This document shows positions 13,353 to 46,307 of a DNA stretch of 52,983 nt, in pieces. Numbering within the stretch: the stretch's first letter is position 1; every line of letters starts with the position of its first letter. The DNA comes from Sulfolobales archaeon (GTDB lineage Archaea > Thermoproteota > Thermoprotei_A > Sulfolobales > AG1). The notes under the pieces were generated by a model. The model did not search any database. It was not told the origin of the DNA and saw only the letters and a list, made by a program, of their open reading frames with translations. The translations under genes and the position numbers were made by a program. The stretch is from assembly GCA_038897115.1 (NCBI GenBank), contig JAWAXC010000005.1, positions 1-52,983 of the forward strand, read 5' to 3'.

Positions 13353-13460
13353 TGATTCTCTATCAAGGGTAAAAATGATATTAAAGATAATATTTATGTG
13401 CGATCTACCATGTCTTTGAGGCTTCTAGCTATAATGATCCTTCGAGATTATCTATGATCT

Positions 13461-13492: not shown

Positions 13493-13581
13493 TCCATATA
13501 GCATTAAACTCCAATGCATTATTGAACATGTTCAATCCACCTCTATCTTGCCACACACGGAATCATTTTAAGGTGATATAG

Positions 13582-13734
13582 GTGAGGAAACAGGTATTTG
13601 CAGAGCTCCTCGATAACCTATGGTTCTGGGGGGCTCTAGCACTAGCTATACTGGTGATCTATGGTGTGTGGGCTCTTCTAGAGGCTACCGGTATGCATGG
13701 CATGCCAGGGATTATTCCGAGGGGGTGGGGCTAG
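13582..13734 (+). CDS. Small single-helix subunit of the ba3-like oxidase (50 residues)
   Basis: A GTG at 13582 opens a 50-codon frame ending with TAG at 13732-13734. The next gene begins on the very next base. The translation has a charged N-terminus (MRKQVFAELLDNL), one hydrophobic helix (WFWGALALAILVIYGVWALL, residues 14-33), then a Gly/Met/Pro tail (GMHGMPGIIPRGWG). A preceding AGGTGATATAGG could act as ribosome site. B-type oxidases such as Thermus ba3 contain a small one-helix subunit (IIa) encoded by the same operon, and this gene fits that role by position, size and topology. Assignment rests on context, not on sequence identity. Confidence 0.7.
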   Translation: MRKQVFAELLDNLWFWGALALAILVIYGVWALLEATGMHGMPGIIPRGWG

Positions 13735-14259
13735 GTGGTTCTAACACCTAGAAGTCTGGAGGAGTGGTATAAGCCCTTTTCAAAGGAGGAGAAGATATGG
13801 TTCATACTAGCTATAGCAGTTGCCCTTACACTTGCAGCAACAACTCTCTCATGGCATATAGTAGATCCCTATCACCAGGTTCCAACAACAGCTATGGAGA
13901 TCTCTCCGAGGGAGTTCTCCCAGAGGGCATCGGCCTTCATGGCTAACTACTCTGGGAAGGTTGTGCCAGAGGGTGTTGATATATATCTAGCAGCATCGCA
14001 ATGGATTTGGAGACCATCTGAGATAAGGCTGAAGGCGGGTGTCACATATAGGATCTGGGTTTCGAGTACAGATGTGCTCCACGGCCTCTCAATAGTTGGC
14101 GAGGATGGGAGGGTTGTGTATAACATAATGGTTATGCCTGGCATGGCATATGCTATCCACATTAGATTCGACAAGCCCGGCACATATGAGATAATATGTA
14201 ATGAATACTGTGGGATCGGGCATCAAGATATGCGTGGAAAGATCGTTGTTGTGGGGTGA
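13735..14259 (+). CDS. Haem-copper oxidase subunit II with complete CuA site
   Basis: This 174-residue subunit accepts electrons from a soluble carrier on the outer membrane face and passes them to subunit I. One transmembrane helix lies at about residues 21-38. The extracellular cupredoxin domain carries all CuA ligands: His116 (DVLHGLS), Cys155, Glu157 and Cys159 in CNEYCGIGH, His163 and Met166. The CuA site argues for a cytochrome or cupredoxin donor rather than quinol. The length is close to the Thermus ba3 subunit II. Start is a GTG directly abutting the preceding stop; subunit I follows after five bases. Confidence 0.95.
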   Translation: MVLTPRSLEEWYKPFSKEEKIWFILAIAVALTLAATTLSWHIVDPYHQVPTTAMEISPREFSQRASAFMANYSGKVVPEGVDIYLAASQWIWRPSEIRLKAGVTYRIWVSSTDVLHGLSIVGEDGRVVYNIMVMPGMAYAIHIRFDKPGTYEIICNEYCGIGHQDMRGKIVVVG

Positions 14260-18944: not shown

Positions 18945-18952
18945 ATCCAAAG

Positions 18953-20179
18953 CTATCTCTTATCAAGCCTCAAAACGGTTTCTAGAAGAACCCTGAGGCC
19001 ATTGATCATATCCTCATCCCTAGTATATTCATCCCTACTATGGCTTCTACCACCAACAGATGGTACAAAGATCATACCTGTCTTCGAAATCCTAGCCATA
19101 TGCTGAGCATCATGACCAGCCCAGCTCCACATCTTCTTATAGCGAAGCCCGAGGCTTCTACATGCATCCTCAATCGCAGAGACCACATCATCGTCAAACC
19201 TAACACCCCTTATCGTGAAAGCCTCTCTAAACTCGAACTCGATGCCCTCCTCATCAGCTATCGCAGCTCCCTGCCTACCCACAAACCCCTCGAAATCCTC
19301 TAAATATCTATCCTCGGGGCTCCTAGCCTCTAGGCTGAACCTAACCTCTCCCGGGATCACATTGTGTATCCCAGGATATACATCTACCCTCCCAACAGTA
19401 GCTCTCACAAGTTTTCTCCTCAAAGCATACTCTCTAACCCTCTGGACAAGCTTTGAAAACCCTATCAGCGGATCCCTCCTAGCCTCCATAGGAGTTGTGC
19501 CCGCATGATTGCTCTCTCCTCTGAACACGCACTCCCAATTTCTTATCGATACAATCCCCAGTGGGATCCCTATCTGATATCCCTCAGAATCTAGCTCGGG
19601 GCCCTGCTCTATGTGAAGCTCTAGATAATACTTGGGAGGCCTATTCACGAGGTTATTCCTTCTATCCCCCTTAAAACCAGATCTCTCCAACGCCTCTCCA
19701 AAGCTAATCCCATCTCGATCCCTTCTAGAATATATGTAATTAATATCATAGACTCCTGTGGATAGGCCTGAACCCATTAGAGAGGGGGTCCATCTAGAAC
19801 CTTCTTCATTGGTAAAATCTATAAGCATGATCCTATGCCTAGTCTTGAGGCGAGAGAGACTTATTATTCTCAGAATCTCTAGCCCAGCTATAACCCCAAG
19901 AGCACCATCATATTTCCCACCGCCTGGTACAGAGTCTAGATGCGATCCTATTGCAATCACCTCATCCCCCTCTCTTATTTCTGCGATTATGTTCCCTGCT
20001 TCATCATATGATATGGAGGCTCCTATGGATCTTAGGATCTCTATTAAAAGCCTCCTAGCCCTTAGATCGCTTTCACTCAGAGAAAGCCTATACATACCCC
20101 TCTCACTATCCCACCCTATTTCGGAGAATCTTCTGAACGTTTCGAGAAACCTCTGCGGATCTAGGAGATCTTGGGGCAA
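18953..20179 (-). CDS. M20-family N-carbamoyl-L-amino acid hydrolase / allantoate amidohydrolase-like enzyme
   Basis: The 408-residue enzyme belongs to the amidase/hydantoinase-carbamoylase branch of M20. Motifs are GSHLDSVPGGGKYDG (His, Asp), FTNEEGSRW (catalytic Glu), ELHIEQGP (His), ESNHAGTTPMEARRD (substrate/dimer loop) and GGRSHSRDEYT (last His). It would release an amino acid from an N-carbamoyl or ureido compound. It is convergent with the neighbouring M20 gene, eight bases apart, so they are not co-transcribed. Which ureido substrate is used is not decidable, but such enzymes usually act after hydantoinase or in purine breakdown. Confidence 0.85.
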   Translation of the reverse strand: MPQDLLDPQRFLETFRRFSEIGWDSERGMYRLSLSESDLRARRLLIEILRSIGASISYDEAGNIIAEIREGDEVIAIGSHLDSVPGGGKYDGALGVIAGLEILRIISLSRLKTRHRIMLIDFTNEEGSRWTPSLMGSGLSTGVYDINYIYSRRDRDGISFGEALERSGFKGDRRNNLVNRPPKYYLELHIEQGPELDSEGYQIGIPLGIVSIRNWECVFRGESNHAGTTPMEARRDPLIGFSKLVQRVREYALRRKLVRATVGRVDVYPGIHNVIPGEVRFSLEARSPEDRYLEDFEGFVGRQGAAIADEEGIEFEFREAFTIRGVRFDDDVVSAIEDACRSLGLRYKKMWSWAGHDAQHMARISKTGMIFVPSVGGRSHSRDEYTRDEDMINGLRVLLETVLRLDKR

Positions 20180-21118: not shown

Positions 21119-22642
21119 CTATTTCTTCTCAATATCCTTTGTAGATGATACAAGCCCATGGTATATCTTATAGCTTGGAGCCACTGTCTTTGGATGATTA
21201 GCCCTTACAGCATCTAGCCTTGATACTGATGTGTTTCTAGGTGATCCCTTTAATACAGAGGGATCTTTATATGCCTTCTCAGCTATTCTGTTTAAAGCCT
21301 CTGCATATATATCTATAACCTCTCTAGGCTCTGTCTCTGTAAACTCTATCATTAGGGCTTCGCCAACTATTAGTGGGAAGTATATTGTTGGTGCGTGGAG
21401 CCCCTCATCTAGAAGGGCCTTAGCTATATCCTCAGCCGTAACCCCCGTCTCCCTAGCTATCTTCGAGGCGCTTATCACAACCTCGTGCTTCCTAGGCTTC
21501 TCAGGGTTATATGGGATCTCGTAGTAGGGTTTCTCCAACAGCTTCTTTATAAAGTAGTTAGTGTTGATCACAGAGATCTCAGAGACCTCTCTAAGGCCTT
21601 GGGGGCCGAGCATGGATATATAGATAAATGTCCTTATAACAGGAACTATATTTCCATAGAATGCCTTTACCATCCCTATACACCTCTTACACTCATAATC
21701 CCAGAAATATCTATCGCCCTGCCTAGCTATGAGGGGCCTTGGGAGATAGTCAACAAGCTCTCCCCTAGCACATACAACCCCTCCCCCAGGACCTCCACTC
21801 CCATGAGGCGTTGCGAATGTCTTGTGCAGGTTTAGATGAACAATATCGAAGCCCATATCACCTGGCCTCGCAACCCCTAGGATACCGTTTAGATTCGCAC
21901 CATCATAGTATAGAAGGCCTCCATAGCTGTGAACAAGATCAGATATCTCGAGGATCCTGCTCTCAAAGATCCCAAGGGTGTTTGGGTTTGTAAGCATGAT
22001 CCCAGCTGTTCTAGGGCCTAACGCGGCCTTAAGAGCCTCCATAGATACCTCACCATCATCACCAGTTGGGATCCTAACCACCTTGAAGCCCGCCATTGCG
22101 GCGCTAGCAGAGTTAGATCCATGTGCTGAGTCTGGGATCAGCATCTCATCCCTATCCTCCCCCCTATCTAGGTGGTACTTCCTAATCATTATAGCCCCTG
22201 CAAGCTCGCCAGCAGATCCTGCTGGGGGTTGGAAGGAGCATCTATCCATCCCCGTTATCTCTGAGAGCCACCTCTCGGTAGTATATATTATCTCTAGAAG
22301 ACCTTGAACCGTCTCTTCATCCTGGAGAGGATGTAGATCTGTGATCCTTGGGTCTAGGGCTATGAGATCCATGATCTTCGGGTTATACTTCATAGTACAT
22401 GAGCCCAGGGGTACAGGGCCAACATCAACCCCGTAGGACATCTGTGATAGCCTTGTATAGTGCCTCACAACCTCGACCTCGGATAGAGATGGTATTGATG
22501 GTGGCTTCGCCCTAGCTATTTTGCCCGGGATCTCGATCTCTATATCCGTGAACTGATCCTCATAGGGTATCGAGGGCCCTTGGGAGGTATACCTCTCCAT
22601 CTCTAGGATCAGCTTTTCATCCCATCTAGCCTGCCTCCACAT
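21119..22642 (-). CDS. gcvPB: Glycine dehydrogenase (decarboxylating) subunit 2
   Basis: This is the PLP-carrying half of the split P-protein of the glycine cleavage system, which decarboxylates glycine and loads the aminomethyl group on the H-protein lipoyl arm. The PLP lysine is in LNLHKTFATPHGSGGPG. Other family marks are GVDVGPVPLGSCTMKYNP, SFQPPAGSAGELAG and MLTNPNTLGIFE. At 507 residues it has full subunit length. It starts one base after the stop of subunit 1, so the two are translated together. The T, H and L components are not in the window. Confidence 0.95.
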   Translation of the reverse strand: MWRQARWDEKLILEMERYTSQGPSIPYEDQFTDIEIEIPGKIARAKPPSIPSLSEVEVVRHYTRLSQMSYGVDVGPVPLGSCTMKYNPKIMDLIALDPRITDLHPLQDEETVQGLLEIIYTTERWLSEITGMDRCSFQPPAGSAGELAGAIMIRKYHLDRGEDRDEMLIPDSAHGSNSASAAMAGFKVVRIPTGDDGEVSMEALKAALGPRTAGIMLTNPNTLGIFESRILEISDLVHSYGGLLYYDGANLNGILGVARPGDMGFDIVHLNLHKTFATPHGSGGPGGGVVCARGELVDYLPRPLIARQGDRYFWDYECKRCIGMVKAFYGNIVPVIRTFIYISMLGPQGLREVSEISVINTNYFIKKLLEKPYYEIPYNPEKPRKHEVVISASKIARETGVTAEDIAKALLDEGLHAPTIYFPLIVGEALMIEFTETEPREVIDIYAEALNRIAEKAYKDPSVLKGSPRNTSVSRLDAVRANHPKTVAPSYKIYHGLVSSTKDIEKK

Positions 22643-22643
22643 C

Positions 22644-24020
22644 TCAAGCCACCTCTGCTAGCGCCTGGACAAGCCTATCTATATCATCCCTACTATGGAT
22701 CTCTGAGAAGCAGTAGAGAGCACAATCCTCAAACCCCTTTAAAAGCCCTTTCAACCATAGCCCACCATGGATCCCTCTCTCGAGAAGATCCCTATGGATC
22801 TCACCATAGCTTTTCCCATGGAACCTCAGGGGGATCTCTCTATAGAATAGCCTGCTCCTCAAAGCTATTGAAACCTTTCCAGATAGTCTCCTCCTAATAC
22901 TCTCTACAGCGTATTGTGTTCTCCTAAGAATCGATTCACCCAGCCTTCTAATTCCGTTACCCCCTAGATAGGCTATGTAGATCGTGGCCATTATAGCCAT
23001 GAGCGAGGAGTTAGTAGTTATGTTACTCGTAGCCTTCTCCCTCCTTATATGCTGCTCCCTAGCCTGGAGGATCAACATATATCCCCTCCTACCATCAGCA
23101 TCTACAGTAGCTCCCACAAGCCTCCCGGGTAGCTGTTTCAAGAGCTCCTGATCCATCCTTATCCCCAGAATCCCGAGACCTGGACCACCATAGTTAAGAC
23201 CGAGCCCTAGGCTCTGGCCATCGCCAACAACTATGTCAGCCCCATATTCCCCGGGGGGTCTGAGGATCCCTAGGCTTGTTGGCTCTGAATATACTATGAA
23301 TAGAGCCCTCTTCTTCCTAGCTATCTCCCCAACAGCCTCTGGATCCTCTATTATATTCCCCAGAAACCCTGGGTTCTCTAGATAGATCGCCGCTGTATTA
23401 TCATCTACCCTCCCATATATATCCCCGAGATCTGGATCTCCCTTCTCATCAACCCTATACTCCTCCAGAACACCTCTAACAGGTGATAGCCATGTAGATG
23501 CAACAGATCTGTAGAAGGGGTTCATAGTGGCTGGAACAAGGATCTTACTCCTCTTAGTAGCCCTCATAGCGAGTCTGAAGGCCTCCGCAACAGCTGTAGA
23601 TCCATCGTACATAGAGGCGTTAACAACATCAACACCATATAGCTCAGCCATTATACTCTGGTACTCGAATATAGCCTGGAGCACCCCCTGGTTGATCTCG
23701 GGCTGGTATGGAGTGTAAGAGGTATAGATCTCTCCTCTGAGGGCTAGAAACCTAACTATAGATGGTACATAGCCAGCACAGACCCCACCACCTATGAAGG
23801 GCGGGGGATCTCTGAAAACCCTGTTCCTAGATAAAATCCTATCAACAATCCTATAGACCTCATACTCAGAAAGCGGCCTGCCAAACCCAACCTTTAGAGG
23901 CTCTCTAAGCCTTATACTCTCCGGAATATCCCCAAAGAGATCCTCAACATCCTTGCCAATGAATCTCAGCATCTCCCTCTTAACAATGGGATCCGAATTC
24001 GGTATCCAGCTATGATACAT
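22644..24020 (-). CDS. gcvPA: Glycine dehydrogenase (decarboxylating) subunit 1
   Basis: The second half of the split P-protein, structurally like subunit 2 but without the PLP lysine. Recognisable stretches are GGGVCAGYVPSIVRFLALRGE, TSYTPYQPEINQGVLQ (shortened), the SMYDGSTAVAEA motif, and INYGGPGLGILG-like GLNYGGPGLG. The family start, WIPNSDPIVKREMLRFIG, fits the ATG at 24020, preceded by GGAAG; an upstream in-frame ATG at 24044 adds eight residues. A TTTTTATTA promoter element lies about 20 bases before 24044. It is first in the gcvPA-gcvPB operon. Confidence 0.94.
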   Translation of the reverse strand: MYHSWIPNSDPIVKREMLRFIGKDVEDLFGDIPESIRLREPLKVGFGRPLSEYEVYRIVDRILSRNRVFRDPPPFIGGGVCAGYVPSIVRFLALRGEIYTSYTPYQPEINQGVLQAIFEYQSIMAELYGVDVVNASMYDGSTAVAEAFRLAMRATKRSKILVPATMNPFYRSVASTWLSPVRGVLEEYRVDEKGDPDLGDIYGRVDDNTAAIYLENPGFLGNIIEDPEAVGEIARKKRALFIVYSEPTSLGILRPPGEYGADIVVGDGQSLGLGLNYGGPGLGILGIRMDQELLKQLPGRLVGATVDADGRRGYMLILQAREQHIRREKATSNITTNSSLMAIMATIYIAYLGGNGIRRLGESILRRTQYAVESIRRRLSGKVSIALRSRLFYREIPLRFHGKSYGEIHRDLLERGIHGGLWLKGLLKGFEDCALYCFSEIHSRDDIDRLVQALAEVA

Positions 24021-24230
24021 ATGGCTTCCACATAACTTCATCACAGCAAAAGCTAATAAAAAGCCTATGACAAGAGATCTTCAGCCCATGGGATCAGCCC
24101 CGGCCTCCTCCTAGCTAGCTTATAGATCCCCTATCACAACATGGATCAATAGATCTAATACCCCACTAGAAGGCCCCCACATCAACCCCCAATCCCCACC
24201 AACCTATTTAACACCACCTCATAGACATCA

Positions 24231-35289: not shown

Positions 35290-35506
35290 AGGCTAATGCA
35301 TTTTGATATTAGACCTCTGCCTTTACCTCTTACAGTCCTCACCCCTTCCATCGGGATCCTTTAGCGATCTAGCAAAGACTCCGCAGGAGTATATAGAGTA
35401 CTCAGAAAGAGGCTTCTATATGGTAGATCTTGCCTCGAGAAGCCCTATGCATCAGCATGTATGATCATATGAGATAGCTGGGCATGGAATACACAGCAAG
35501 GTATCT

Positions 35507-35541
35507 GACCTCCTCCCTGCCTCGAAGGGCTGGTTTCCCTT
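35507..35541 (+). repeat. IS605-like end repeat, copy E
   Basis: GACCTCCTCCCTGCCTCGAAGGG is a diverged form of repeats C and D, followed by GCTGGTTTCCCTTGGGG. It lies downstream of the decayed tnpB gene (which reads leftward) and just beyond the decayed vapC, as the right end of that element would. From 35290 to 35506 no supported gene is seen; a 53-codon frame with a TTG start near 35301 is too short to judge. Confidence 0.5.
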
Positions 35542-35608
35542 GGGGCGGTTCACTGGTTTGTGGTTTACCGCTATCGTTCTCATTAGCTTAGCTAGATGAT
35601 ATCCTGGT

Positions 35609-35945
35609 TTAAGCTATTAGCTTGAGCTTAAAGTCATAACCTAGCTCTTTATCCATTGTGGCTAGCTCTTCTCTAAGCCTTATTGCTAAGCTGCTATGAT
35701 AAGGTCTGTTGCTTGTTGAGGTTTGCCTTTCTCTATTAGTTTTAGCTATAGCCTGCGGGCTAAAATACAGTCTTCTCCCACTGGAAACTTTATGCTACCT
35801 TTAAATTTCCTGTAATAGATTCAATAGATTATCTTCGGGTATTCGACTAGCGTTATGGCTGTTATATCTCCATCTATGGATTCCCCCTTTCTAGCTCTAT
35901 CCATTACTACATATTTATCGTATATGCTCAAGGCTTGTACGGACT
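35609..35945 (-). pseudogene. Decayed PIN-domain (VapC-type) gene
   Basis: Joining frames on the minus strand recovers a PIN-domain pattern: DRARKGESIDGDITAITLVE, YPKIIY (stop) then FKGSIKFPVGEDCILARRL (stop), GKPQQATDLIIAA (frame change), AIRLREELATMDKELGYDF and KLKLIA before a TAA at 35609-35611. The acidic residues of the active site (Glu in LVEYP, Asp in ATDLIIAA, Asp in TMDKE) are still visible. At least two stops and one frameshift break it, so no toxin can be made. The antitoxin partner is not found. It lies between repeat E and the broken tnpB. Confidence 0.7.
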
Positions 35946-35989
35946 CTTCAACCTCTCCTTTCCCTCAAGCTCCATCCAATCAATGGCTC

Positions 35990-36874
35990 TAGTCGATCCA
36001 CATGCAGAACCTTCTATAGCCTATTATGATCAGCTAGCCCTGTGATCCTTGCTAGTTATCATTCTCAGCCTATTCAGAAGCCCCCTAAGATCTTCTCTAG
36101 CTACTGCTTTCCTAGATCCAACGCTACCCTGACAATTCCCGAGGATATCTTCCTTTGGCGATCATCTAGGATGTTTCTGGCTCTCCTATGGTATGCTCTG
36201 AATCTGTTGAGTATATCCTTTCTCCTCCTCTAAGCCTGTGTCAGGCGATGAGTACTTGGCTTGCAGAGCCTCAGCCAACAGGACGTATCTATATGCTCTC
36301 TCGATCCCAGTATTCATTTCAAATGTATGTTCTCATCCCCATAAACGATTTTCCTCTCATTAAAATCCATTGCAGTGGCATCCTTGGAGATACACTCAGA
36401 TTGTTTCGGGATCCTCTTTGAGATCCAGAGGATCATCTTTCTATCTTTATAGACAAGCATTGCCTCCCCGTTCTCATACTGATCGTATCTCCTGTCCCAG
36501 CCGATGAGCTTAAGCCCCCCTACCCACGATCTCCACATAGCCATCCTCAACCCTATAGCTAGATCCCGGGCGAAGCATCATCGATAGCTCCTTAACTCTT
36601 GGTTTCTTTCCCCTCTAGGCTTCCTCTACCAAGACATGGCTATTGCCAGTGCATCCCTATAGCAGTCCAAAGCCATTTTCAATGGTAATCCGAAGACCTC
36701 CTTTGATCTCTCTGTAGAAGGCTCTGTAGACATATCCCTAAGTGTTTTTAAGTTTGAGCTCAGGATCTTATAGAGGACATACTTCAGGGCCACCCTGTAT
36801 CTCTCAAGGAGCTCCACAGTCCCCAGCTCTGGACTACCCTCACACCTATTGAAAAGGATTAGCCTCCTCAACAC
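35990..36874 (-). pseudogene. tnpB: Decayed tnpB gene of an IS200/IS605-type element
   Basis: Reading leftward from the ATG at 36874, TnpB segments appear in order but in shifting frames: YRVALKYVLYKILSSNLKTL, FGLPLKMALDCYRDALAIA, GKKPRVKELSMMLRPGSSYR, GLKLIGWDRRYDQYENGEAM, LVYKDRKMILWISKR, ATAMDFNERKIVYGDENIH (first RuvC Asp region), IERAYRYVLLAEALQ, RAYHRRARNILDD, AREDLRGLLNRL (RuvC Glu) and IGYRRFCMWIDW. Several frameshifts and stops interrupt it. The zinc ribbon and the last RuvC aspartate are gone; the gene breaks off where the vapC remnant begins. It is the probable source of the repeats A to E. Confidence 0.8.
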
Positions 36875-37555
36875 TAGAGACCATAGAGCATCTAGAAGGA
36901 AATCTTAGAAGCCTTAGAAGCATCTATCCCTGTCATAAATGTCAGGGCTTCCAGTTATAATTGAGTCGATCGAGGATAGACCCTTCGTCGAGACGCTAGA
37001 GTTTGAGTATAGGAACAAGAATAGGCTAATTGCTATTTCTTTCCAGTAATAAAATTAGCTGGTATATAGCTATGGAAGAGGTATCCATAGAATTTTCTAT
37101 AGTCTCTTAATTTCATGAAGTGATTGTGCTCATTTTCTCATTAATATCACTCCTATATGTCACTATTGCAACCTCAAACCCCATTAACCACTTTAATAAC
37201 TTCTAAGCGCAATACATAAAAATATGTAGAAAGCAGCATATAATTCTCATAATATATATTATATAATTTGTATATTATATAATTATTAATGGTCAAGGCG
37301 TTAACTATAGAATCAACTATGAAGTGATTATAAAGTACTCACCACAAGAGCCAGGTCTATTGGGGTGCCACTGTTACAGGGAACTAATATTGTGGCCAAG
37401 CAAATCTAGGTCTCATGAGTCTCGGAACTTCAGGTTCGCTACTAGCACTAGGTTTTAGATGCCCAACTATAACTAAACACAAGTTCACAGTATTAGTGTA
37501 TTGTAATTATTTAGAGTATAGGATCTTATATTAAGGCATTTTATCTAGCGTGCCT
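36875..37555. other. Intergenic DNA with an AT-rich direct repeat, no supported gene
   Basis: A 36-codon frame (36939-37049, plus strand, MSGLPVIIESIEDRPFVETL...) could be a gene fragment but has no family look. At 37255-37268 and 37271-37284 the 14-base unit TATATTATATAATT occurs twice with a two-base spacer. The rest is unremarkable AT-rich DNA downstream of the DUF1177 operon. Confidence 0.4.
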
Positions 37556-38476
37556 CTAAGATCTGACCCTTCTGCTCATTATCTCCTTAAGATCTCCGTG
37601 GTACTTCAGTAAGGTTTGATACTCGTTCTCGTAATATATCTCAATAGATCTAGATGTGTACTTCTTGGCTATCTCTAAAACAAATCTAGATGCTGGTTCT
37701 AAGGAGCTTAAATCTGTTACCCCCGTAGCAGATCCAGGTATAACGCTCTCAGAAGTTATTGCAACACCCATCACTGGTGTATCTGTATATAGCCATGGTT
37801 GTAGAATGCTGTTAATATGTTTCACAGGTGTTGAAAAGGGGACTATATCTTGCATAGTTATAGGCACAAGGATCGGGGGCCTACCAGCTATCCAGCTATA
37901 TATCTCAAGCACCTCTTCAGTAGGCCTCAAGATCCACCCCCTGACAACCACAGGTGTTATGGCGAACCCCCTTATCTTTATAACCTTATTCCCCTTGGTG
38001 GCATCGATCGAGATATGGGCGTCGACACTCTCATCGACTTCCCTCATTAACAGCTGATCTAGATCCACCGGTGAATCCATCATGGGAGCAGGCTTCTCGG
38101 GCCTTATAGGCGAGTTTGTAGATATATGAGTCGCTATAACAAATCTACCCATAAGCTCTTCTCCCCGAGAGCACATTCTCCCAAGCTTTTCTGCAACAGC
38201 GAGAGCCACTATAGCCCCATCAGCATCCGACACCATGCCTATTAAATGGGGTCTAGCACCCACACCTCCTAATCTACCTATGATACCTATTCCCCTTCCC
38301 CCGCCGAAGTCGAATACTATTTTCGTAAATAGGGTTTCTCCTTTTTCACCTTTTAATCTCTCGAAATGTATTGATGCTTCTCTGCACCCACTCACCAACT
38401 GTTCTATATCCTCTTCACCAACTCTTGGCGCGTCGAGGATATCTATTACTCTGATCACGCTCGGTGCCATAGACAT
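37556..38476 (-). CDS. DUF1177 family protein
   Basis: The 306-residue soluble protein matches DUF1177, whose function is unknown. The conserved feel is in KIVFDFGGGRGIGIIGRLGG, GMVSDADGAIVALAVAEKLG, VIATHISTNSPIRPE and VMGVAITSESVIPGSATG. The Asp/Gly-rich segments and the THIS/TPVMD-type loops suggest a hydrolase or metal-binding enzyme, but this is inference. It is the last gene of a four-gene operon, two bases after DUF917. In the families as I know them, DUF1177 genes often sit beside aroM-family genes, as they do here. Confidence 0.85.
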   Translation of the reverse strand: MSMAPSVIRVIDILDAPRVGEEDIEQLVSGCREASIHFERLKGEKGETLFTKIVFDFGGGRGIGIIGRLGGVGARPHLIGMVSDADGAIVALAVAEKLGRMCSRGEELMGRFVIATHISTNSPIRPEKPAPMMDSPVDLDQLLMREVDESVDAHISIDATKGNKVIKIRGFAITPVVVRGWILRPTEEVLEIYSWIAGRPPILVPITMQDIVPFSTPVKHINSILQPWLYTDTPVMGVAITSESVIPGSATGVTDLSSLEPASRFVLEIAKKYTSRSIEIYYENEYQTLLKYHGDLKEIMSRRVRS

Positions 38477-38478
38477 TG

Positions 38479-39579
38479 CTATCCCACCAGGAGCTCCTTC
38501 AAATAGACCCTTATATCTCTTCCAATAGCCCTTACCACCTGATCGTAGGATTCCGGATATCTCAGCCCAGAGCCTAGTCTAAGTTTCTTCCACCTTATTA
38601 CTACTATATTGAATCTAGATCCTTCTTTCAGATCTTTGCTCAATAGGGGAAGCCCAGTTGTTAGATCGATCATGGATATGAGATCAGGAAATACAGCTAT
38701 AATCCCACTAGAATCTTCTAGATATATGTTTTCATTAGCATATACTAATATATAGTCCATATTACCACATTTAATTCTCACTCTCCCATAGTCCAGGCCT
38801 TCTCTTATCTCAGAGAAACTTTCAATAACTTGACACCCCTCTATAACTGCTCCAGAGTATTTCTCAGCTATTCTATAGCTAAGCTCCAGGGGATCTGATC
38901 TATAATTAGAGATCATAGATCCTAGCTCGAAGGCTAGGGCAATAGCTCCGGGAGCACCGTTATCCTTGACATAGCTAATATATATAGGGTTTCTCGCAGT
39001 AGCCACCACACCCTTCATGGATACTATGCTTCTGAGTATATTGATGACTTCTTCCAGAGAACCCTTTAATACAGCAGATCCTCGGGATCGATCCCCAGCT
39101 ATTCCCCACCTAGCAGCGATAATCGACACATAGCCTGAGAGCCTTTGGAGCCCCATAGAACCCATTAAAACTGTTGGATGAGCTCTGCCATTACATGGTG
39201 CATCTATAACTGGGATTTCCAGTAAAATAGATGCTGGGAAAGGAGATAACGTGTTCACAGCACCTATTTCAGAGCTTATTAAACCATCAATAGGTTTTCC
39301 AATAGCTTTCTCCAAATCTCTAACCGATCCTACAAGGTTAGCTATTAAGGAGGATCTTGTCCATGTATCTATGCTCTGAGGCCCCACAATAGATGTGGTA
39401 ACTACTATCGCATCTGGCCTTACCTCATCCACAGATCTTATCTCAACATATCCTAGTCTAGCAAATATCTTGGCTAGCTCAAGCCCAAGCACTAGATCGC
39501 CCCCACCTCCACCGCCAAGAAATGCTGAGCCGAGTACAAGCTTTTCCATCTTATCCTCGCTATCTATGAGAAGAACCAT
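38479..39579 (-). CDS. DUF917 family protein
   Basis: A 366-residue protein with the DUF917 start (VLGSAFLGGGGGGDLVLG) and the conserved GLISSEIGAVNTLSPF and PVIDAPCNGRAHPTVLMGSMGL. DUF917 proteins are frequently encoded next to HyuA-type hydantoinase/oxoprolinase genes and are counted with that functional group, although their own activity is unproven. The C-terminal third (GRVRIKCGNMDYILVYANENIYLED) is beta-rich, as in the family. The gene lies one base after the M29-like gene and two bases before DUF1177. Confidence 0.85.
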   Translation of the reverse strand: MVLLIDSEDKMEKLVLGSAFLGGGGGGDLVLGLELAKIFARLGYVEIRSVDEVRPDAIVVTTSIVGPQSIDTWTRSSLIANLVGSVRDLEKAIGKPIDGLISSEIGAVNTLSPFPASILLEIPVIDAPCNGRAHPTVLMGSMGLQRLSGYVSIIAARWGIAGDRSRGSAVLKGSLEEVINILRSIVSMKGVVATARNPIYISYVKDNGAPGAIALAFELGSMISNYRSDPLELSYRIAEKYSGAVIEGCQVIESFSEIREGLDYGRVRIKCGNMDYILVYANENIYLEDSSGIIAVFPDLISMIDLTTGLPLLSKDLKEGSRFNIVVIRWKKLRLGSGLRYPESYDQVVRAIGRDIRVYLKELLVG

Positions 39580-39580
39580 T

Positions 39581-40570
39581 TTATATCCTCCATATACCTT
39601 TCTCTATTATGATTTTTCTATCAGCATATAATGTAGGTTTTAAGAGAACCATATCTATGTGGATCCCTGCTTTTACCCTACCCCCAAAGGTGCTGTTATC
39701 GCCCAAAGCTAGATGTACAGTTCCAAAAATCTTCTCATCCTCAAGAACAACACCGCTCAACCTTGCTGCGGAGTTGCATCCTATGCCAAGCTCAGCTGGA
39801 AAGTTAAAGGCGTCTTCGCTTCTCATAGATGCTAATAACTCATATAGTCTTCTAGCCTCGGAACCTCCACTGATTTCCTTGGCACGCCCACGCTCCACAA
39901 TAATTTTAACATGTTCTTTAACCACCCCTATTCCTCCTGAAATGCTTCCATCAACAACAACGACACCATTAGCTGTCCCCTCAAGAGGTGCCACATAAAC
40001 CTCACCAGCAGGTAGATTTCCCCACATGCCAGGCTTATCATATATGCCCCCGTCTAGATGGAATTCTCTACCACTAACAGAGAAGGATATATCTGTTCCC
40101 TGCTCACTCGTTATCCTTATCTCGGAGCATCCCTTCAGAGCCTCAAAAAGCTTTTCGCATAGAGGTATAACATCGGCTTTATAGTTAATCGAAAGTGTTC
40201 TAAGAAATATTTCTTCAGTTATACCTGGCATCGTAGCTCCTCTAGATCCTTTATCTGTAACCTGTCTCCTAGCTTGGGTATGTGTTAAACTATATTTAGT
40301 AGGCGCTATAAATACATCGCTTTCTAGCCACGCTGCCCTTACAGGGTCTGGAGGCTCCTCACCATTCCTGCTTCTCGGCTTCATAGTTATTAAAACGGCT
40401 TCAGCCCCTAGCTCGAGACCTGCTTGGAAGAGGGCATAGCCGATGTTAATCTTCTCTGTGTCTGTGATTACTAGAAACCTCTCTCCTGCTGATAGGCCTA
40501 GATTTATTTTAACTATATTTTTCGCTATATCTAGAAGATCCTTTCTATGAATGCTTAAAACCTGGGTCAT
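39581..40570 (-). CDS. M29 (aminopeptidase T)-like metalloprotein with the canonical metal ligands
   Basis: This 329-residue member of the aminopeptidase T family (COG2309) keeps the metal-binding motifs in order: NLPAGEVYVAP (Glu), ELGIG (Glu), IFGTVHLALG (His) and IHIDMVL (His and Asp). M29 enzymes remove N-terminal amino acids. The fold is shared by 2,5-dihydroxypyridine dioxygenase NicX. At 329 residues it is shorter than the roughly 400-residue peptidases. It is second in the operon, with a paralogue ten bases upstream and DUF917 one base downstream, which argues for a shared pathway rather than general peptide trimming. Confidence 0.8.
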   Translation of the reverse strand: MTQVLSIHRKDLLDIAKNIVKINLGLSAGERFLVITDTEKINIGYALFQAGLELGAEAVLITMKPRSRNGEEPPDPVRAAWLESDVFIAPTKYSLTHTQARRQVTDKGSRGATMPGITEEIFLRTLSINYKADVIPLCEKLFEALKGCSEIRITSEQGTDISFSVSGREFHLDGGIYDKPGMWGNLPAGEVYVAPLEGTANGVVVVDGSISGGIGVVKEHVKIIVERGRAKEISGGSEARRLYELLASMRSEDAFNFPAELGIGCNSAARLSGVVLEDEKIFGTVHLALGDNSTFGGRVKAGIHIDMVLLKPTLYADRKIIIEKGIWRI

Positions 40571-40580
40571 CGATCTTACC

Positions 40581-41606
40581 CTAATATCTTCTAAGTTTTT
40601 TATCTAACTCGACTAGATCTCTATGAACGAATCTACCGCCACTTGCTATAAGCTCATCATCGTAGTAGACGTCCGGATTATAGACGCCAAGATCTGTATG
40701 TGCCTTAGCCAGCCCTATTTTCCCTTTGAATTTAAGGCTCTGCGATCCGAAGCCAAATTCTATTCCACCATATATCCTTTCATCCTCTAGCGGGAGGCCT
40801 CTTAGCCTTGCTCTTGGATGAAAGCCCCATGAAACGTGTGCGATATAATACATTTTATCATCTTTAAAGGAGGCTAGCCATTTCTCAAATATCTTGGCTT
40901 CGATACCCCCCTCAATCTTTACAATCCTTCCTTCCTTAACAACCAACTTGACAGGGTTCTTCAGAACTCCTAGATCACTTGGAGGCCATATAAATGTATC
41001 AGCCACTATTACGCCTTCAAAACTATCCTCCTTAGGCGCCCATGATATTTGACCTCCTAGAGGCTTGTAGATCCCCTTCTCACGTAATATTCCATCGTTG
41101 TGGAATACAGGTCTCGATGGATCGTTCTCAAAAGCTATATCTGTTCCAGACACACTTTTAATTCTAATAATCTTCGCTTGCCTAGTAAGCTCTGTTAACT
41201 TATCACCTAGTTCACACATTGTGCTATAATCAACCCTCCCTATAAGTCTGATCATCATATCAGGATCCATCCCCGTGAGCTCTAATATCCTAGCCCCCGC
41301 TCTCATTGCTTCATTATATGCTTTTGTATGCAGTATATACATGAGTGGCAAGCTTATTATCACATCGCTGGATCTCATCGCCTCTGCAACATGCCTAGGA
41401 GGCTCGATATCTACTTCATCTCTCGTCTCATATATCGTGATCGATGGTTCTGCACCAAGTGTATACGATGCAGATGCTAAGGCTTTAATCATCTCCCAAT
41501 CAATAGCTGTATCTGCTAATATCAAAATGTTTTCTCCTTGCTTCACAAGAGCTAGATCCTTTACAGTTTTCATAGCCGCCTTGTAGAGCTCCATGAAGTA
41601 GCTCAT
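40581..41606 (-). CDS. M29/NicX-like protein with exchanged metal ligands
   Basis: The 341-residue paralogue of the next gene has the same overall pattern, but the ligand positions differ: GEV becomes GGQISWAP (Glu to Gln), ELGIG becomes IAHVSWGF (Glu to His) and GTVH becomes GGIEFGFG (His to Glu). AHTDLGVY keeps His-x-Asp. A His plus His-x-Asp set is reminiscent of the 2-His-1-Asp iron site of NicX-type dioxygenases; this comparison is from memory and inference. It may be a different enzyme or a non-peptidase subunit of a pair with its neighbour. It is first in the operon and divergent from aroM. Confidence 0.75.
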   Translation of the reverse strand: MSYFMELYKAAMKTVKDLALVKQGENILILADTAIDWEMIKALASASYTLGAEPSITIYETRDEVDIEPPRHVAEAMRSSDVIISLPLMYILHTKAYNEAMRAGARILELTGMDPDMMIRLIGRVDYSTMCELGDKLTELTRQAKIIRIKSVSGTDIAFENDPSRPVFHNDGILREKGIYKPLGGQISWAPKEDSFEGVIVADTFIWPPSDLGVLKNPVKLVVKEGRIVKIEGGIEAKIFEKWLASFKDDKMYYIAHVSWGFHPRARLRGLPLEDERIYGGIEFGFGSQSLKFKGKIGLAKAHTDLGVYNPDVYYDDELIASGGRFVHRDLVELDKKLRRY

Positions 41607-41767
41607 ATAGACCGCCGAGATTCAATAATAGACCAGGAATATATATTATATTGTGATTATAATTATAGCATAGTTAGTTATTCTCAGCTATTTAAGAGAA
41701 GAGGTTCCCATTATACATTGGCATATATTTATTACATCTAAGGACTATGTATTGCGTGGGGAACCAT

Positions 41768-42463
41768 ATGGTAAGAATAGGTCTTGTTACAATAGGTCAG
41801 TCACCTAGAAAAGATATAACGGATGATCTGATCAAGATCCTGCCTCCAGAAGTAGAACTAGTAGAGGCTGGAGCGCTAGATGATCTCACATTAGAAGAGA
41901 TTAAGAGGAAACTGTCTCCTGACCCTGGAGATGTTGTATATGTAACGCGGTTGAGGGATGGAACAGAGGTTAAGGTTTCAAAAGAGAAGATCTTAGATCT
42001 GATGAGAGTTAAGATAGATCTTTTAGACTCAAAGGGAGTCGATATAATAGCTATACTCTGCTCTGGTGAGTTCCCAGAATTTAAAGCAAGTGTTCCAATA
42101 CTATATCCAGATAAAATATTGAAAGGCATAGTATCAGGAGTTAAATATAGAGGCAAAACAGCGGTTCTAATACCGGCTAGAGAACAGATAAGCTATGCAA
42201 GGGATAAGTGGTCTCCATATCTAGAAAATCCAGATATAATAGCAATATCGCCATATACCTCTACACCAGAGGATTTTATTAGAATTGGAAGAACATTTAA
42301 AGAGCATATGGTTGGATTTGCCGTTATGGATTGTATGGGGTATTCACTAAATCATAAGAGGATCATAAAACAGATATCACCACTAACAAGGATTATAACC
42401 TCGAGAGGAGCCTTAGCCAGAGCTCTTTCAGAGATGGTTGATAGCCTGAATCTAAATAAGTAA
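41768..42463 (+). CDS. AroM family protein (racemase-like fold)
   Basis: The 231-residue protein begins with the AroM signature VRIGLVTIGQSPRKDITDDL. Two cysteines in matching halves, ILCSGEFPEF and VMDCMGYSLNHK, recall the paired catalytic cysteines of Asp/Glu racemase-type enzymes (inference). AroM has no proven reaction, despite its name. I choose the ATG at 41768, preceded by GGGG, rather than the ATG at 41747. It is transcribed away from the M29-DUF917-DUF1177 operon from a shared 160-base region and converges with the importer genes. Confidence 0.85.
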   Translation: MVRIGLVTIGQSPRKDITDDLIKILPPEVELVEAGALDDLTLEEIKRKLSPDPGDVVYVTRLRDGTEVKVSKEKILDLMRVKIDLLDSKGVDIIAILCSGEFPEFKASVPILYPDKILKGIVSGVKYRGKTAVLIPAREQISYARDKWSPYLENPDIIAISPYTSTPEDFIRIGRTFKEHMVGFAVMDCMGYSLNHKRIIKQISPLTRIITSRGALARALSEMVDSLNLNK

Positions 42464-42494
42464 ATAAAAACAGTTGCAATTGAAAGTTAAAAGC

Positions 42495-44324
42495 TCATCT
42501 CCTTCTTAGTCTAAGTGCTATAAACAGCGCTACTATTATAACTATAATTGCTATAGCGATATAGATCATCGTGTTAGCTGTGGGGGCACCTATTAGAGGT
42601 GTTAGAGTTGGGGTAGGTGTTAATGCCGCTGTAAGAGTAGCTGTAGCTATGGGTCCAGGTGCTGGTGTAGTGGTAGCTATAGGTGTAGGTGTTTGTGTCG
42701 CTAGTGTCTTTAGAAATACCTTTTCAGGTCTCATGTAGTTTGTACCAAATCCGTTCTCCCATACACCTGGCTGTAGCTCGTCCGAAAATGCTGCATTTAG
42801 TAGTGCTACAAAGGTTCTCGAAACAAGCCACACAGCTGGCTGGTCATTAACTATTATATTTAGGGCTTGTCTGACAAGCTCTATCTGCTTAGCTCTATCC
42901 AGCTCTTTCTCAGCTGCGAAAAGTAATTGCTCGGCCTTTGGATTGCTATATCCCATCGCATTCGACCAGGATGCCCTTACTATACCTCTGCTCGTGTAAT
43001 ACTGGATAAAGTACGCAGGGCCTGGGCCGTGTACGAATGGGAATATACTCATATCGAAATCCCAGTTTCTGAAAACCGTTTGATGCCATGCAGCAGTATC
43101 TAATGTTATTATTTGCACATCTATTCCAACCTGCCTTAGAAAGTCTCTTATAAGTTCTGCCTCCTTTACATACCATGGGTAAGATGTTGAATCTATTGTT
43201 AGTCTCAGCTTAAATCTTATTCCGTCAGGACCTCTCTTATATCCTGCCTCATCTAGAAGCCTGTTAGCCTCTTCAGGATTATAGCTGGGCTGCTTAGCAT
43301 CTGGATAGAACATTGCGGTAGCAGGTGCTCGTGAAACCATAGTGTCTAGAGGTTCTACCTTGCCAAAATATACGACCTCAGCAATCGCTGATCTATTTAT
43401 AGCCATCGCAATAGCCTTCCTAACCCTTACATCCTTCAACGGTGCAGCCCCTTCTGGATGTAGGTTGAATCCCAGCACATCTAGCGAGCCTCCAGGGCTT
43501 GGGAAGAACCAAACCTTCTTTCCAGGTAACTTACCCTCTTTTATCATCCTTTCTAGTTGTACAGCATGTGCAAAGGTTATACCGTAGTTCCATACAAAGT
43601 CTATCTCTCCTCGTTGGAATGCTAGCATCATAGCCTCAGAGCTCGGTATTATTTTATAAATAATCCTGTCGAGATATGGAAGACCCTTCTTCCAATACTT
43701 ATCATTCCTCTCAAGAACTATATATTGTCCCTTAACCCATTCTTTAAATTTAAAAGGTCCAGTTCCTACGGGCTTTGTATTATATGGATTAGTAGCTATA
43801 TCTGTCCCCTCATAGAGGTGCTTAGGACTTATACATGTGCCCGACCCTCCGAAATATCCTGGATAGAGGATTAACCCCCATGTTGTGTTAAACCTAAATA
43901 CAACTGTATAGTTGTCAGGTGTATCTATACCCTCGAGATATTTCCACATACCAGCTATAAAGCTATTAAAGACAGGCCCTATTTTCTCATATGAGAACTT
44001 AACGTCTTGGGATGTAAATGGCACGCCATCATGCCATGTAGCGTTTCTCACAAGGTAGAAGACCACGAGCATTTTGCTATCGTTGGTCTTTATAATCTGC
44101 CATGATTCCGCTAGATCTGGAACCCATTCAAGAGTTTGTGGATCGAAATCTACTAGCGAGTTACAGATAGGAGTTACAACCTGGTAGTAAGTCCATGTAG
44201 GGCTTCCTGTGAGGACTAGGTTGGGGGGTTCAGAAGGTATGCCTATAACAAGGGTGCCACCATATACAGGAGTTACACTTTGAGATTCAGCATTAATAGT
44301 ATTTATAGCTATTCCCATCCCCAT
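42495..44324 (-). CDS. Dipeptide-type substrate-binding protein with C-terminal anchor; signal sequence shifted out of frame
   Basis: A 609-residue family-5 binding protein: GGTLVIGIPSEPPNL, VPDLAESWQII, GTGPFKFKEWVKGQYIVLERND, DVRVRKAIAMAINRSA and WLVSRTFVALL. The Thr/Pro-rich linker (TPTPIATTTPAPGPI) followed by a C-terminal helix and RLRRR is the usual crenarchaeal anchor. From the ATG at 44324 the protein lacks a proper signal peptide. Upstream in the same frame there is a good one (KILGILSILALIMG) without any start codon; an ATG (44395-44397, MVKRY) sits in another frame. One base too many near 44379-44380 explains this, so the real gene probably starts at 44397. It is last in the importer operon. 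Confidence 0.88.
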   Translation of the reverse strand: MGMGIAINTINAESQSVTPVYGGTLVIGIPSEPPNLVLTGSPTWTYYQVVTPICNSLVDFDPQTLEWVPDLAESWQIIKTNDSKMLVVFYLVRNATWHDGVPFTSQDVKFSYEKIGPVFNSFIAGMWKYLEGIDTPDNYTVVFRFNTTWGLILYPGYFGGSGTCISPKHLYEGTDIATNPYNTKPVGTGPFKFKEWVKGQYIVLERNDKYWKKGLPYLDRIIYKIIPSSEAMMLAFQRGEIDFVWNYGITFAHAVQLERMIKEGKLPGKKVWFFPSPGGSLDVLGFNLHPEGAAPLKDVRVRKAIAMAINRSAIAEVVYFGKVEPLDTMVSRAPATAMFYPDAKQPSYNPEEANRLLDEAGYKRGPDGIRFKLRLTIDSTSYPWYVKEAELIRDFLRQVGIDVQIITLDTAAWHQTVFRNWDFDMSIFPFVHGPGPAYFIQYYTSRGIVRASWSNAMGYSNPKAEQLLFAAEKELDRAKQIELVRQALNIIVNDQPAVWLVSRTFVALLNAAFSDELQPGVWENGFGTNYMRPEKVFLKTLATQTPTPIATTTPAPGPIATATLTAALTPTPTLTPLIGAPTANTMIYIAIAIIVIIVALFIALRLRRR

Positions 44325-44463
44325 TATTAATGCTAATATACTTAATATCCCAAGGATCTTTATATATGGTCTAGATCCAACGATACCTCTTCACCATGTT
44401 AAGTATTAAATAGTCCCTTAATATACTTAGTTATAGATCTTCTGAGGGGTTAGTGGGAAAAGC

Positions 44464-45336
44464 CTATCGAACCCTTAAACGAGGATTTATATAATCTATT
44501 AATCCATCTCCGAGTAAGTTAAAGCCTATTATAAGCAAAGATAGTATAAGCCCTGGAAAGGCTGCTATCCACCAGGATGTTGTGAGGTATTGCTGGGCTA
44601 TATTTAGAAGCTGTCCTAGGCTAGGGATATTGGGATCACTAATGCCTAAGAAGCCTAAACCTGCCTCTATAAGTATATTATTGCTCATTTGGAGAACAAC
44701 ATAGGGTATTATAGCTGGTAATGAATTAGGTAATATATGTACAAATATGATCCTACGATCACTGACCCCTAATGCTCTTGCAACCTCCACAAAAGCTTGT
44801 TCTTTCACTCTTAGAAACTCTGCTCGTGTCATTCTCGCAATCCCTGGCCAACTTGTAACCCCTATCGCAAGCATTATATTATATATATTCGGGCCAAGTA
44901 TAGTTGCTATTAATAGAGCTAAGAGGAAGGACGGAATTATAAAGGCCATATCGGTTATCCTCATAAGCACGTCTCCCAGAACCCTTCCATAATAACCTGC
45001 CACAGCTCCTATCAATATTCCTATTAATGTTGCTATTGTTGTTGATAAAGCTCCCACAATAAGAGAGGTTCTTAATCCATAAATAGAATTAGTATAGATA
45101 TCCCTACCGAGATCATCTGTGCCAAACGGGTTACTCGGGTTAGGAGGTAGAAATGGATTTGCTACAAGGGTCTTAAGCGGTGGATACCAGGTTATTAGGG
45201 GTGCTGCAGCAGCTATAATTATTAAAGACGATACAATTGTTGCTCCTGTTAAGATTCTTTTGTTTGATAAAATAGCCTGTGTCAATATTGAGAAAAAATA
45301 TATCGTCTTTTTCATAAGCTTTTTCATGCTTCTCAC
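44464..45336 (-). CDS. dppC: Dipeptide/oligopeptide ABC transporter permease, DppC type
   Basis: The 290-residue inner-membrane permease has an N-terminal helix, NPFGTDDLGRDIYTNSIYGLRTSL, and five further helices. The cytoplasmic EAA loop for ATPase docking is EVARALGVSDRRIIFVHILPNSLP. It starts with GTG, one base overlapping the dppB stop and preceded by GGGGGGTG, so translation is coupled. No ATPase gene (dppD/dppF) is in the neighbourhood; the importer must borrow one from elsewhere. Position between dppB and the binding protein confirms the type. Confidence 0.93.
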   Translation of the reverse strand: MRSMKKLMKKTIYFFSILTQAILSNKRILTGATIVSSLIIIAAAAPLITWYPPLKTLVANPFLPPNPSNPFGTDDLGRDIYTNSIYGLRTSLIVGALSTTIATLIGILIGAVAGYYGRVLGDVLMRITDMAFIIPSFLLALLIATILGPNIYNIMLAIGVTSWPGIARMTRAEFLRVKEQAFVEVARALGVSDRRIIFVHILPNSLPAIIPYVVLQMSNNILIEAGLGFLGISDPNIPSLGQLLNIAQQYLTTSWWIAAFPGLILSLLIIGFNLLGDGLIDYINPRLRVR

Positions 45337-46307
45337 TACACCCCCCTCCTAGTCCTTGGATCTAGGATCATATATAGAAGATCAACTATGAAATTAGCAA
45401 TAATTATTATTAGGGATCCATAGATGAATATCCCAAGCATTACCGGATAATCCCTAAGCTTTAACGAGCTATAGAGAAGCGATCCCATACCTGGCCATGA
45501 GAATACGGTCTCCGTCACTATCGCTCCTACTAGTAAAACTCCTGTGTTAAACCCTATGAAAGTAGTTATAGGTATGAGGGCTCCTCTTAAGGCATATCTA
45601 TATAGGATCTTTTTTTCAGACATTCCTATGGCTCTCACGGTTGTTATATAGTCTTGAGCTAGCTCATTGATTATGGCCCCTCTTGTTATCTTAGTAACAT
45701 ACGCTATGTTGAATATAGCAAGTGTTGTGGCTGGGAGGAAGAGATGATATAGTATATCGATATAATATAGTATACCCTCATAGCTCCCTCTGACAGATGT
45801 CATCCCTCCTGTAGGAAAGAGACCTAAATATACTGCAAAAGCTATGAGCATAATCTGGCCAAGCCAAAAATATGGTATAGATATTCCTACAATAGATGTT
45901 ATTGATATGAAGGTATCGATAGCCCCTTTTCTAGAGGCTGCGAGCACCCCTAAGAATATTCCTAGAGCTGATGCTATGGCCATGGCGCTAAATACTAAAA
46001 GAAATGTAGCTGGAATCCTACTTATTATAAGAGATACTACAGGCTCTGATCTCAGATATGAATAACCCAAGTCTCCTCTAAGCACATTTCCTATGTATAT
46101 GAGAAGCTGTTCATGTAAAGGTTTATCAAGGCCAAATTTCTCCCTTACAGATCTTATAAACTTTTCATCTGTAACCTCACCAGCAAGTACATATGTTGGA
46201 TCTCCAGGTGCTAAATGTATTAATATGAATGTAACTACTATAACTCCAAAGAATAGAGCTATATAGAGAATCGCCCTCCTAAGAATAAATGATCTAATAG
46301 CTGACAA
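45336..46307 (-). CDS. dppB: Dipeptide/oligopeptide ABC transporter permease, DppB type
   Basis: The 323-residue protein shows the DppB N-terminus (FILRRAILYIALFFGVIVVTFILIHLAPGDP shortened), the conserved KFGLDKPLHEQLLIYIGN, and the EAA loop TTVRAIGMSEKKILYRYALRGALIP. Six helices are visible. It is first in the operon dppB-dppC-binding protein. The start is a TTG at 46305-46307, preceded by AGGGGC. The upstream 315-base region (46308-46622) is shared with the divergent ornithine-cyclodeaminase-like gene. Confidence 0.93.
   Translation of the reverse strand: MSAIRSFILRRAILYIALFFGVIVVTFILIHLAPGDPTYVLAGEVTDEKFIRSVREKFGLDKPLHEQLLIYIGNVLRGDLGYSYLRSEPVVSLIISRIPATFLLVFSAMAIASALGIFLGVLAASRKGAIDTFISITSIVGISIPYFWLGQIMLIAFAVYLGLFPTGGMTSVRGSYEGILYYIDILYHLFLPATTLAIFNIAYVTKITRGAIINELAQDYITTVRAIGMSEKKILYRYALRGALIPITTFIGFNTGVLLVGAIVTETVFSWPGMGSLLYSSLKLRDYPVMLGIFIYGSLIIIIANFIVDLLYMILDPRTRRGV

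Follow-up and report, generated by a model that had tools for sequence, protein, structure and literature searches.

Cyclic dipeptides are an abundant class of compounds with biological activity. Their microbial breakdown is described as little known in PMC3852281, and our literature searches found no described gene cluster for the degradation of diketopiperazines. The nearest described arrangement surrounds cyclodipeptide oxidase (CDO) genes located outside biosynthetic clusters, where, according to a 2024 study (PMC11055893), genes for DUF917, AroM, hydantoin racemase, OPT or dipeptide ATP-binding cassette (ABC) importers and peptidases are enriched. Further points of comparison are the hydantoinase/hydantoin racemase/carbamoylase systems, the (S-methyl) thiohydantoin desulfurases, the dihydroxypyridine dioxygenase NicX, the M29 aminopeptidases and the DppABCDF importer. 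Here we compare these systems with a cluster of eight genes (positions 37556-46307) on a 52,983-nucleotide stretch of contig JAWAXC010000005.1 (assembly GCA_038897115.1; the whole stretch is called the window) from a heat-loving Sulfolobales archaeon. The cluster encodes a DUF1177 protein, a DUF917 protein, two proteins of the M29/NicX fold, AroM and a dipeptide-type importer.

The genes of this cluster belong to a module that recurs across distant bacteria and archaea. We compiled 80 DUF1177 loci from GTDB species genomes (the best 80 of 554 relatives, many of them cut by contig ends), which came from Thermoproteota, Bathyarchaeota, Nitrososphaeria, Thermoplasmata, Bacillota, Synergistota, Bipolaricaulota, Actinomycetota, Enterobacterales and others. 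Within 3 kb of DUF1177, these loci held AroM in 48 cases, DUF917 of the same clade as in the cluster in 33, a hydantoin-type racemase in 22, an M29/NicX-fold protein in 19, an OPT transporter in 17 and PepE in 8, and at least one of three partner families lay within 5 kb in 62 loci. Since the partners are concentrated in the 2 kb on either side of DUF1177 (23 of 26 AroM and 12 of 16 DUF917 genes in the 38 loci with a full 20 kb) and are almost absent 6-10 kb away, the association exceeds chance. The co-occurrence of DUF1177, AroM, DUF917 and M29/NicX-fold genes, on which the original prediction made from the sequence of the window depended, is thus recurrent, and peptide importers recur with it.

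A second sample, the 147 genomes of the window's class, gave a similar picture. DUF1177 was present in 32 of these genomes, 18 of which belong to one family (f11); outside that family, 12 of 14 DUF1177 genomes had a strong AroM match, compared with 2 of the 133 other genomes (Fisher 6e-14), and in nine genomes besides the window's own about 4 kb or less separated the two genes. A low-scoring DUF917 subset tracked DUF1177 (11 of 12 genomes), whereas ordinary DUF917 did not. Among 72,556 plasmid records, AroM occurred in eight and DUF1177 in seven, with both side by side in five. The order of the window's genes is repeated beside an importer in one further genome (G014, locus L013), with AroM facing away from M29b, DUF917 and DUF1177, while a version in Klebsiella and Sodalis reads OPT-DUF1177-AroM-PepE-racemase and lacks DUF917. 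Haloferax volcanii, included as a control, has DUF1177, AroM and DUF917. Recurrent neighbors also include M29, PepE and M20 peptidases and hydantoin-type racemases. The D-aminoacylase gene that had been thought to fit the window's cluster has counterparts, in that D-aminoacylase-like genes adjoin DUF1177 in four other loci (L053, L070, L071 and L092); the cytosine-deaminase-like neighbor at 34039, put forward on the same grounds, has no relative in any other of about 90 loci. An ornithine-cyclodeaminase/alanine-dehydrogenase-like gene at 46623 was likewise rejected as a member, having no relative in any other locus.

We read the cluster as quite possibly a mobile, patchily spread catabolic module by which a small peptide-derived compound is imported and degraded to amino acids, the likeliest substrate being a 2,5-diketopiperazine (cyclic dipeptide) or another such cyclic amide, five- or six-membered, with D or L residues. 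What was observed directly is which genes are present, how they recur, which folds are predicted and which residues are conserved; from these observations we infer the substrate, the order of steps and every reaction of the following scheme. The compound would be taken up by the binding protein and DppB/DppC, with energy from ATPases whose genes lie elsewhere in the genome. AroM, beside which relatives' clusters also hold a hydantoin-type racemase, would invert or equilibrate the acidic alpha-carbon, either in the ring itself or in the product of its opening, and DUF917 would add water at a ring C=N or C=O carbon, leaving the ring opened or activated. DUF1177 and the M29-type protein would then cleave what this step yields, a linear dipeptide or an N-terminal amide, and the NicX-like protein may catalyze a separate mononuclear-metal step, either oxidative or hydrolytic.

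The transporters encoded in the relatives' clusters bear on the nature of the substrate. The 57 loci with AroM or DUF917 comprised 20 with OPT, 14 with Dpp (one with both), five with an NCS1-type permease and 19 with none or cut; since OPT and Dpp importers far outnumber NCS1 permeases, a peptide is supported as the transported compound. This ratio is unfavorable to catabolism of hydantoins or N-carbamoyl amino acids, which we consider an unlikely alternative and in which AroM would racemize a 5-substituted hydantoin, DUF917 would open it, and DUF1177 or an M20 or carbon-nitrogen hydrolase would decarbamoylate. NCS1-type permeases in a few loci, PucR regulators, an N-carbamoylputrescine-amidase-like hydrolase in three loci (L064, L093 and L048) and the grouping of AroM, DUF917, HyuA and a peptide ABC importer in Salipiger are consistent with such a pathway, but a dihydropyrimidinase-type hydantoinase was not among the recurrent neighbors identified, whereas M29, PepE and M20 peptidases do recur.

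A link to cyclic dipeptides comes from two of the relatives' DUF1177 clusters (L011 and L021), in each of which a nitroreductase gene overlaps a gene for a DUF6092 protein of about 100 amino acids. The L021 nitroreductase is closest in the Protein Data Bank (PDB) to 9exv and albonoursin synthase (8uc3), and the DUF6092 proteins of both loci carry E-P-x2-Y-x3-R, the motif formed by E33, P34, Y37 and R41 of AlbB. Judged from these similarities, the gene pairs are CDO-A/CDO-B pairs, a feature that these two clusters share with the CDO clusters found outside biosynthetic ones. L011 is also the closest orthologous cluster, and its importer is orthologous to that of the window. Of the 147 genomes, 10 have a DUF6092 match above the cut-off; DUF1177 accompanies it in five, in four of them at a distance of a few kilobases (Fisher 7e-4 if f11 is left out of the DUF1177 set, 0.04 with all DUF1177 included). 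The passages of PMC11055893 considered here make no mention of DUF1177, of the M29/NicX pair or of two DUF917 clades. Together with the hydantoin-type racemases and the thiohydantoin-desulfurase-like DUF917, the CDO pairs lend substance to the theme of cyclic amides or D residues that the original prediction had proposed.

The AroM protein (41747-42463, plus strand), whose gene is divergent from the neighboring tandem set, matches PF07302 with 213.9 bits. The E. coli aroM gene was sequenced as early as 1986, according to a reference cited in PMC11055893. The two cysteines of the window's AroM had been likened to those of racemases, and conservation, profile alignment and fold all agree: C105 and C196 are present in 100% and 96% of 55 sequences, respectively, both match the regions of C78 and C177 when the AroM profile is aligned to the clusters' hydantoin-type racemases (97.2%), and the AlphaFold2 model (pLDDT 96.4) retrieved aspartate, allantoin, glutamate and hydantoin racemases with Foldseek (E 5e-7 to 1e-5), as well as maleate isomerase. 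By sequence and model, AroM is a protein of the Asp/Glu/hydantoin racemase superfamily with both catalytic cysteines present. The separate racemase in relatives' clusters is closest to a Pyrococcus hydantoin racemase structure (2eq5, E 1.5e-98), which speaks for hydantoin catabolism. A transcriptome study of nitrogen limitation (PMC4617892) mentions a hydantoin racemase and DppB, but DUF917 and AroM are not named in it, and it was set aside as evidence. In the window's own genome, an intact hydantoin racemase was not found; profile matches there were weak, and one was broken by stops.

The DUF917 protein (38479-39579, minus strand) matches the two domains now named S-Me-THD_N and S-Me-THD_C (PF06032 and PF20906, formerly DUF917) with 86.9 and 70.9 bits. 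It aligns over its full length with the NCBIfam model for (S-methyl) thiohydantoin desulfurase NF058529 at 170.1 bits (equivalog cut-off 440) and scores 168 bits against NF058532 (cut-off 450), values so far below the cut-offs that it is not the same equivalog. All 22 tested members of its clade align with the thiohydantoin desulfurase models. The statement that DUF917, DUF1177 and AroM have no established reactions is dated for DUF917, whose relatives NCBIfam names (S-methyl) thiohydantoin desulfurase, and stands for the other two; our literature searches found no paper on a thiohydantoin desulfurase. That DUF917 relatives act on thiohydantoins favors the hydantoin alternative, but in a tree the 30 DUF1177-adjacent rows, including the window protein, split at 100/100 from seven HyuA-linked or other rows. 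The DUF917 of these clusters is thus, on this phylogeny, a clade separate from the HyuA/hydantoinase-linked one, and the description of the window protein as a companion of hydantoinases is not supported. With hydantoinase systems, whose DUF917 often stands beside HyuA, the window shares a racemase-superfamily member and a ring-amide theme, but it differs from them in lacking HyuA and HyuB, in its DUF917 clade and in having a peptide importer and two peptidase-fold hydrolases. The window's genome has a second DUF917 locus (G000, contig C61, about 5000-13773; L118) with an M20 deacylase, a DUF917 of the other clade and a complete Dpp importer including its two ATPases; fragments that resemble a racemase but contain stop codons lie there between DUF917 and the binding protein.

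The DUF1177 protein (37556-38476, minus strand) matches PF06675 with 323.6 bits (cut-off 25) over profile positions 4-270 of 272. A sequence search of the PDB found no relative and profile-profile comparison with M20 profiles was not significant; only fold comparison gave matches. The AlphaFold2 model (mean pLDDT 90.4, pTM 0.92) was most similar in Foldseek to the M17 leucine aminopeptidase 4zi6 (E 1.7e-7), with BotP, M28 aminopeptidases, glutaminyl cyclases and DapE among the other matches (probability 1.00 and TM about 0.5), a group known as clan MH (M17/M20/M28/M42 metallo-exopeptidases). The protein is thus predicted from its model to have a clan-MH zinc-exopeptidase fold, that of a hydrolase, so that the structure prediction suggested at the outset returned an exopeptidase-like fold for DUF1177 as it did a racemase-superfamily fold for AroM. 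In 53 sequences, D84, D86, D158, D210, H220 and E268 are invariant and H117 is present in 96%. Candidates for a canonical five-residue dinuclear metal site, chosen by conservation only, are the invariant D84, D86, D158, H220 and E268 and the near-invariant H117 and E146, and these conserved acidic and histidine residues could form a metal site. Our literature searches found one incidental mention of DUF1177 and no paper treating the family.

An exopeptidase fold for DUF1177 would also suit salvage of unusual linear peptides (dipeptides with D residues, beta-aspartyl bonds or blocked N termini) by a route with no ring step, in which AroM would epimerize either a residue or an amino acid in free form, hydrolysis of the peptide would fall to DUF1177 together with the M29-type protein, and DUF917 would be accessory. 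The OPT and Dpp importers, the neighboring PepE dipeptidase, M20, D-aminoacylase-like and M29 genes and the Klebsiella/Sodalis version without DUF917 are all in keeping with this possibility. We nevertheless think it improbable, as the occurrence of DUF917 and CDO pairs is hard to account for without a cyclic substrate, and the closest solved relative of the clusters' racemase is of the hydantoin type rather than the Asp/Glu type.

DUF1177 also occurs in other settings. In four loci from Bathyarchaeota (L035, L036, L057 and L059), it has a different but conserved surrounding, adjoining a universal stress protein and an M24 peptidase, with no AroM or DUF917. In the 18 f11 genomes (G034, G048, G049 and others), a divergent DUF1177 stands alone without AroM and possibly has another function; in L002 it has GRLGAIQVRQEK instead of GRLGGIGARP.

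The two M29/NicX-fold proteins are homologous (hhalign 100%), but they carry different signatures and are not duplicates of one function. The first (39581-40570, minus strand) matches Pfam M29 with 39.9 bits (cut-off 27), as do all 12 tested members of its family, and its profile finds PepS, AmpS and AmpT. Its residues E190, E260, H286, H304 and D306 (EEHHD) match the M29 metal-ligand set of AmpS and AmpT at all five positions, although at about 330 amino acids the protein is shorter than the M29 aminopeptidases (about 410) and only remotely similar in sequence. The second protein (40581-41606, minus strand) has Q186, H257, E283, H303 and D305 (QHEHD) at these positions, with Glu283 in place of the M29 metal-binding histidine, and none of ten family members tested matches any Pfam family, M29 included. 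Across the M29/NicX-fold sequences the signature was EEHHD in 17, QHEHD in 11 and QHVHD in one. Both types occur together in the window, in Bipolaricaulota (L032), in Clostridiales (L042) and in Chloroflexi (L046), where the second type is the QHVHD protein.

The QHEHD protein is clearly related to the 2,5-dihydroxypyridine dioxygenase NicX (PDB 7cn3; E 3.1e-19 with the single sequence, 5.5e-30 with a profile). NicX binds Fe(II) through His265, Ser302, His318 and Asp320 (PMC7910607), three of which are kept as H257, H303 and D305, a 2-His-1-Asp metal triad common to both proteins. This relationship raises the alternative that, much as nicotinate is degraded, the NicX-like protein would open a pyridine-like heterocycle oxidatively and the other enzymes would act downstream. 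Maleate isomerase shares the fold of AroM, and a COX1-type terminal oxidase subunit encoded in the window (14265-15941) indicates that the organism may respire oxygen, so that oxygen may be used. An invariant glycine (G285) nevertheless replaces the Ser302 ligand, and of the NicX substrate contacts His105 is kept (H93), whereas Glu177 is replaced by Asn and His189 is not kept. In addition, the importers are of the peptide type, the M29 type is the commoner of the M29/NicX-fold proteins, and no further NicX-pathway gene was noticed in the listed neighborhoods or annotated plasmid loci, although no search was aimed at such genes. We consider this alternative very improbable, and pyridine ring opening as such by the QHEHD protein is not supported, because the Ser302 ligand and the Glu177 and His189 contacts are not kept; the pyridine-like part of the original inference of import and breakdown is thus unsupported, while the cyclic-amide or D-residue part is retained. 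The split in signatures and the missing NicX residues suggest an exopeptidase as the best description of the EEHHD protein and another metalloenzyme, not a dihydroxypyridine dioxygenase, as that of the QHEHD protein.

Several observations weigh against breakdown of a cyclic dipeptide as the function of the module. Neither a CDO-A match nor DUF6092 was found in the window's own genome, and since this genome also lacks an intact hydantoin racemase, the link to cyclic dipeptides rests on relatives. In this respect the window's genome differs from the CDO clusters outside biosynthetic ones, and the substrate is unproven in both; PMC11055893 describes the CDO-like enzymes of such clusters as having no proven substrate. 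Diketopiperazine hydrolysis by DUF917 is a conjecture, and the named relatives of DUF917 act on thiohydantoins. Finally, in 18 of the 80 loci no member of the three partner families lies within 5 kb of DUF1177, and f11 has DUF1177 without AroM, as does the control Sulfolobus acidocaldarius.

All eight open reading frames of the cluster lie where originally described. Those of the tandem set (NicX-like protein, M29-type protein, DUF917 and DUF1177, in the direction of transcription) are separated by exactly 10, 1 and 2 bases, and a divergent gap of 140 bases separates this set from aroM. Pfam confirmed all of the family assignments but one, that of 40581-41606. The importer consists of a family-5 (dipeptide/oligopeptide type) solute-binding protein with a C-terminal membrane anchor (42495-44324; PF00496, SBP_bac_5, 293.5 bits), a DppC-type permease (44464-45336; PF00528, BPD_transp_1, 118.5 bits) and a DppB-type permease (45336-46307; PF00528, 125 bits), all on the minus strand. 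The signal-peptide-like segment YIKILGILSILALIMGMG of the binding protein runs upstream of its first in-frame ATG, in 44325-44463, with no ATG, GTG or TTG there, pointing to either an unusual start codon or a sequencing error. Between DUF1177 and the cytosine-deaminase-like gene, 2.27 kb (35290-37555) contain no convincing gene or similarity. Amino-acid and peptide metabolism is a theme across the whole window, which also holds a convergent pair of M20 peptidase genes with glycine-cleavage P-protein subunits after them (17682-20179 and 21119-24044) and, at its edge, a further family-5 solute-binding protein gene (461-2116; 360.7 bits).

Close relatives of the importer were found in only two loci, both of them DUF1177 clusters: L011 from the same family (G004) and L025 from Ca. 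Geocrenenecus. The binding protein is 82% (L011) and 68% (L025) identical to its orthologs, the next best being 26-29%; DppB is 68% and 66% identical, respectively, with the next best at about 40%, and DppC has orthologs (65-69% identity) in these two loci only. Unlike the complete DppABCDF importer, the window locus encodes no DppD or DppF, and no ATPase gene or remnant was found in the cluster or in the adjoining 35290-37555, where matches were at chance level. Either ATPases encoded elsewhere serve this importer in trans, or it does not function. The window's genome has five DppD/DppF-type ATPase pairs, four with their own permeases and one (contig C26, L114) with no permease beside it. The D subunit of this orphan pair shares 54% identity with the ATPase of the L025 importer (the L011 ATPase shares 55%), making the pair, on sequence grounds, a plausible partner of the window importer in trans; the F subunit shows no comparable closeness.

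The association of these families around CDOs is in part already published, in PMC11055893. What is new is that DUF1177, with its predicted exopeptidase fold, is a core member, that the DUF917 involved forms a clade of its own and that EEHHD and QHEHD proteins occur as a pair, as well as the archaeal distribution. It is possible, though rather doubtful, that the module constitutes a previously undescribed diketopiperazine salvage pathway common to archaea and bacteria, in which AroM would be a ring epimerase, the DUF1177-linked DUF917 a ring-opening hydrolase, DUF1177 a new metallo-dipeptidase family and the QHEHD protein a new family of NicX-like metalloenzymes. DUF1177 and AroM have no assigned reaction, and their membership in a module, together with recognizable catalytic folds, makes their function directly testable, particularly in Haloferax volcanii, a genetically tractable archaeon with the three core families. 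If true, the diketopiperazine salvage reading would simultaneously assign a role to each of three families that have none.

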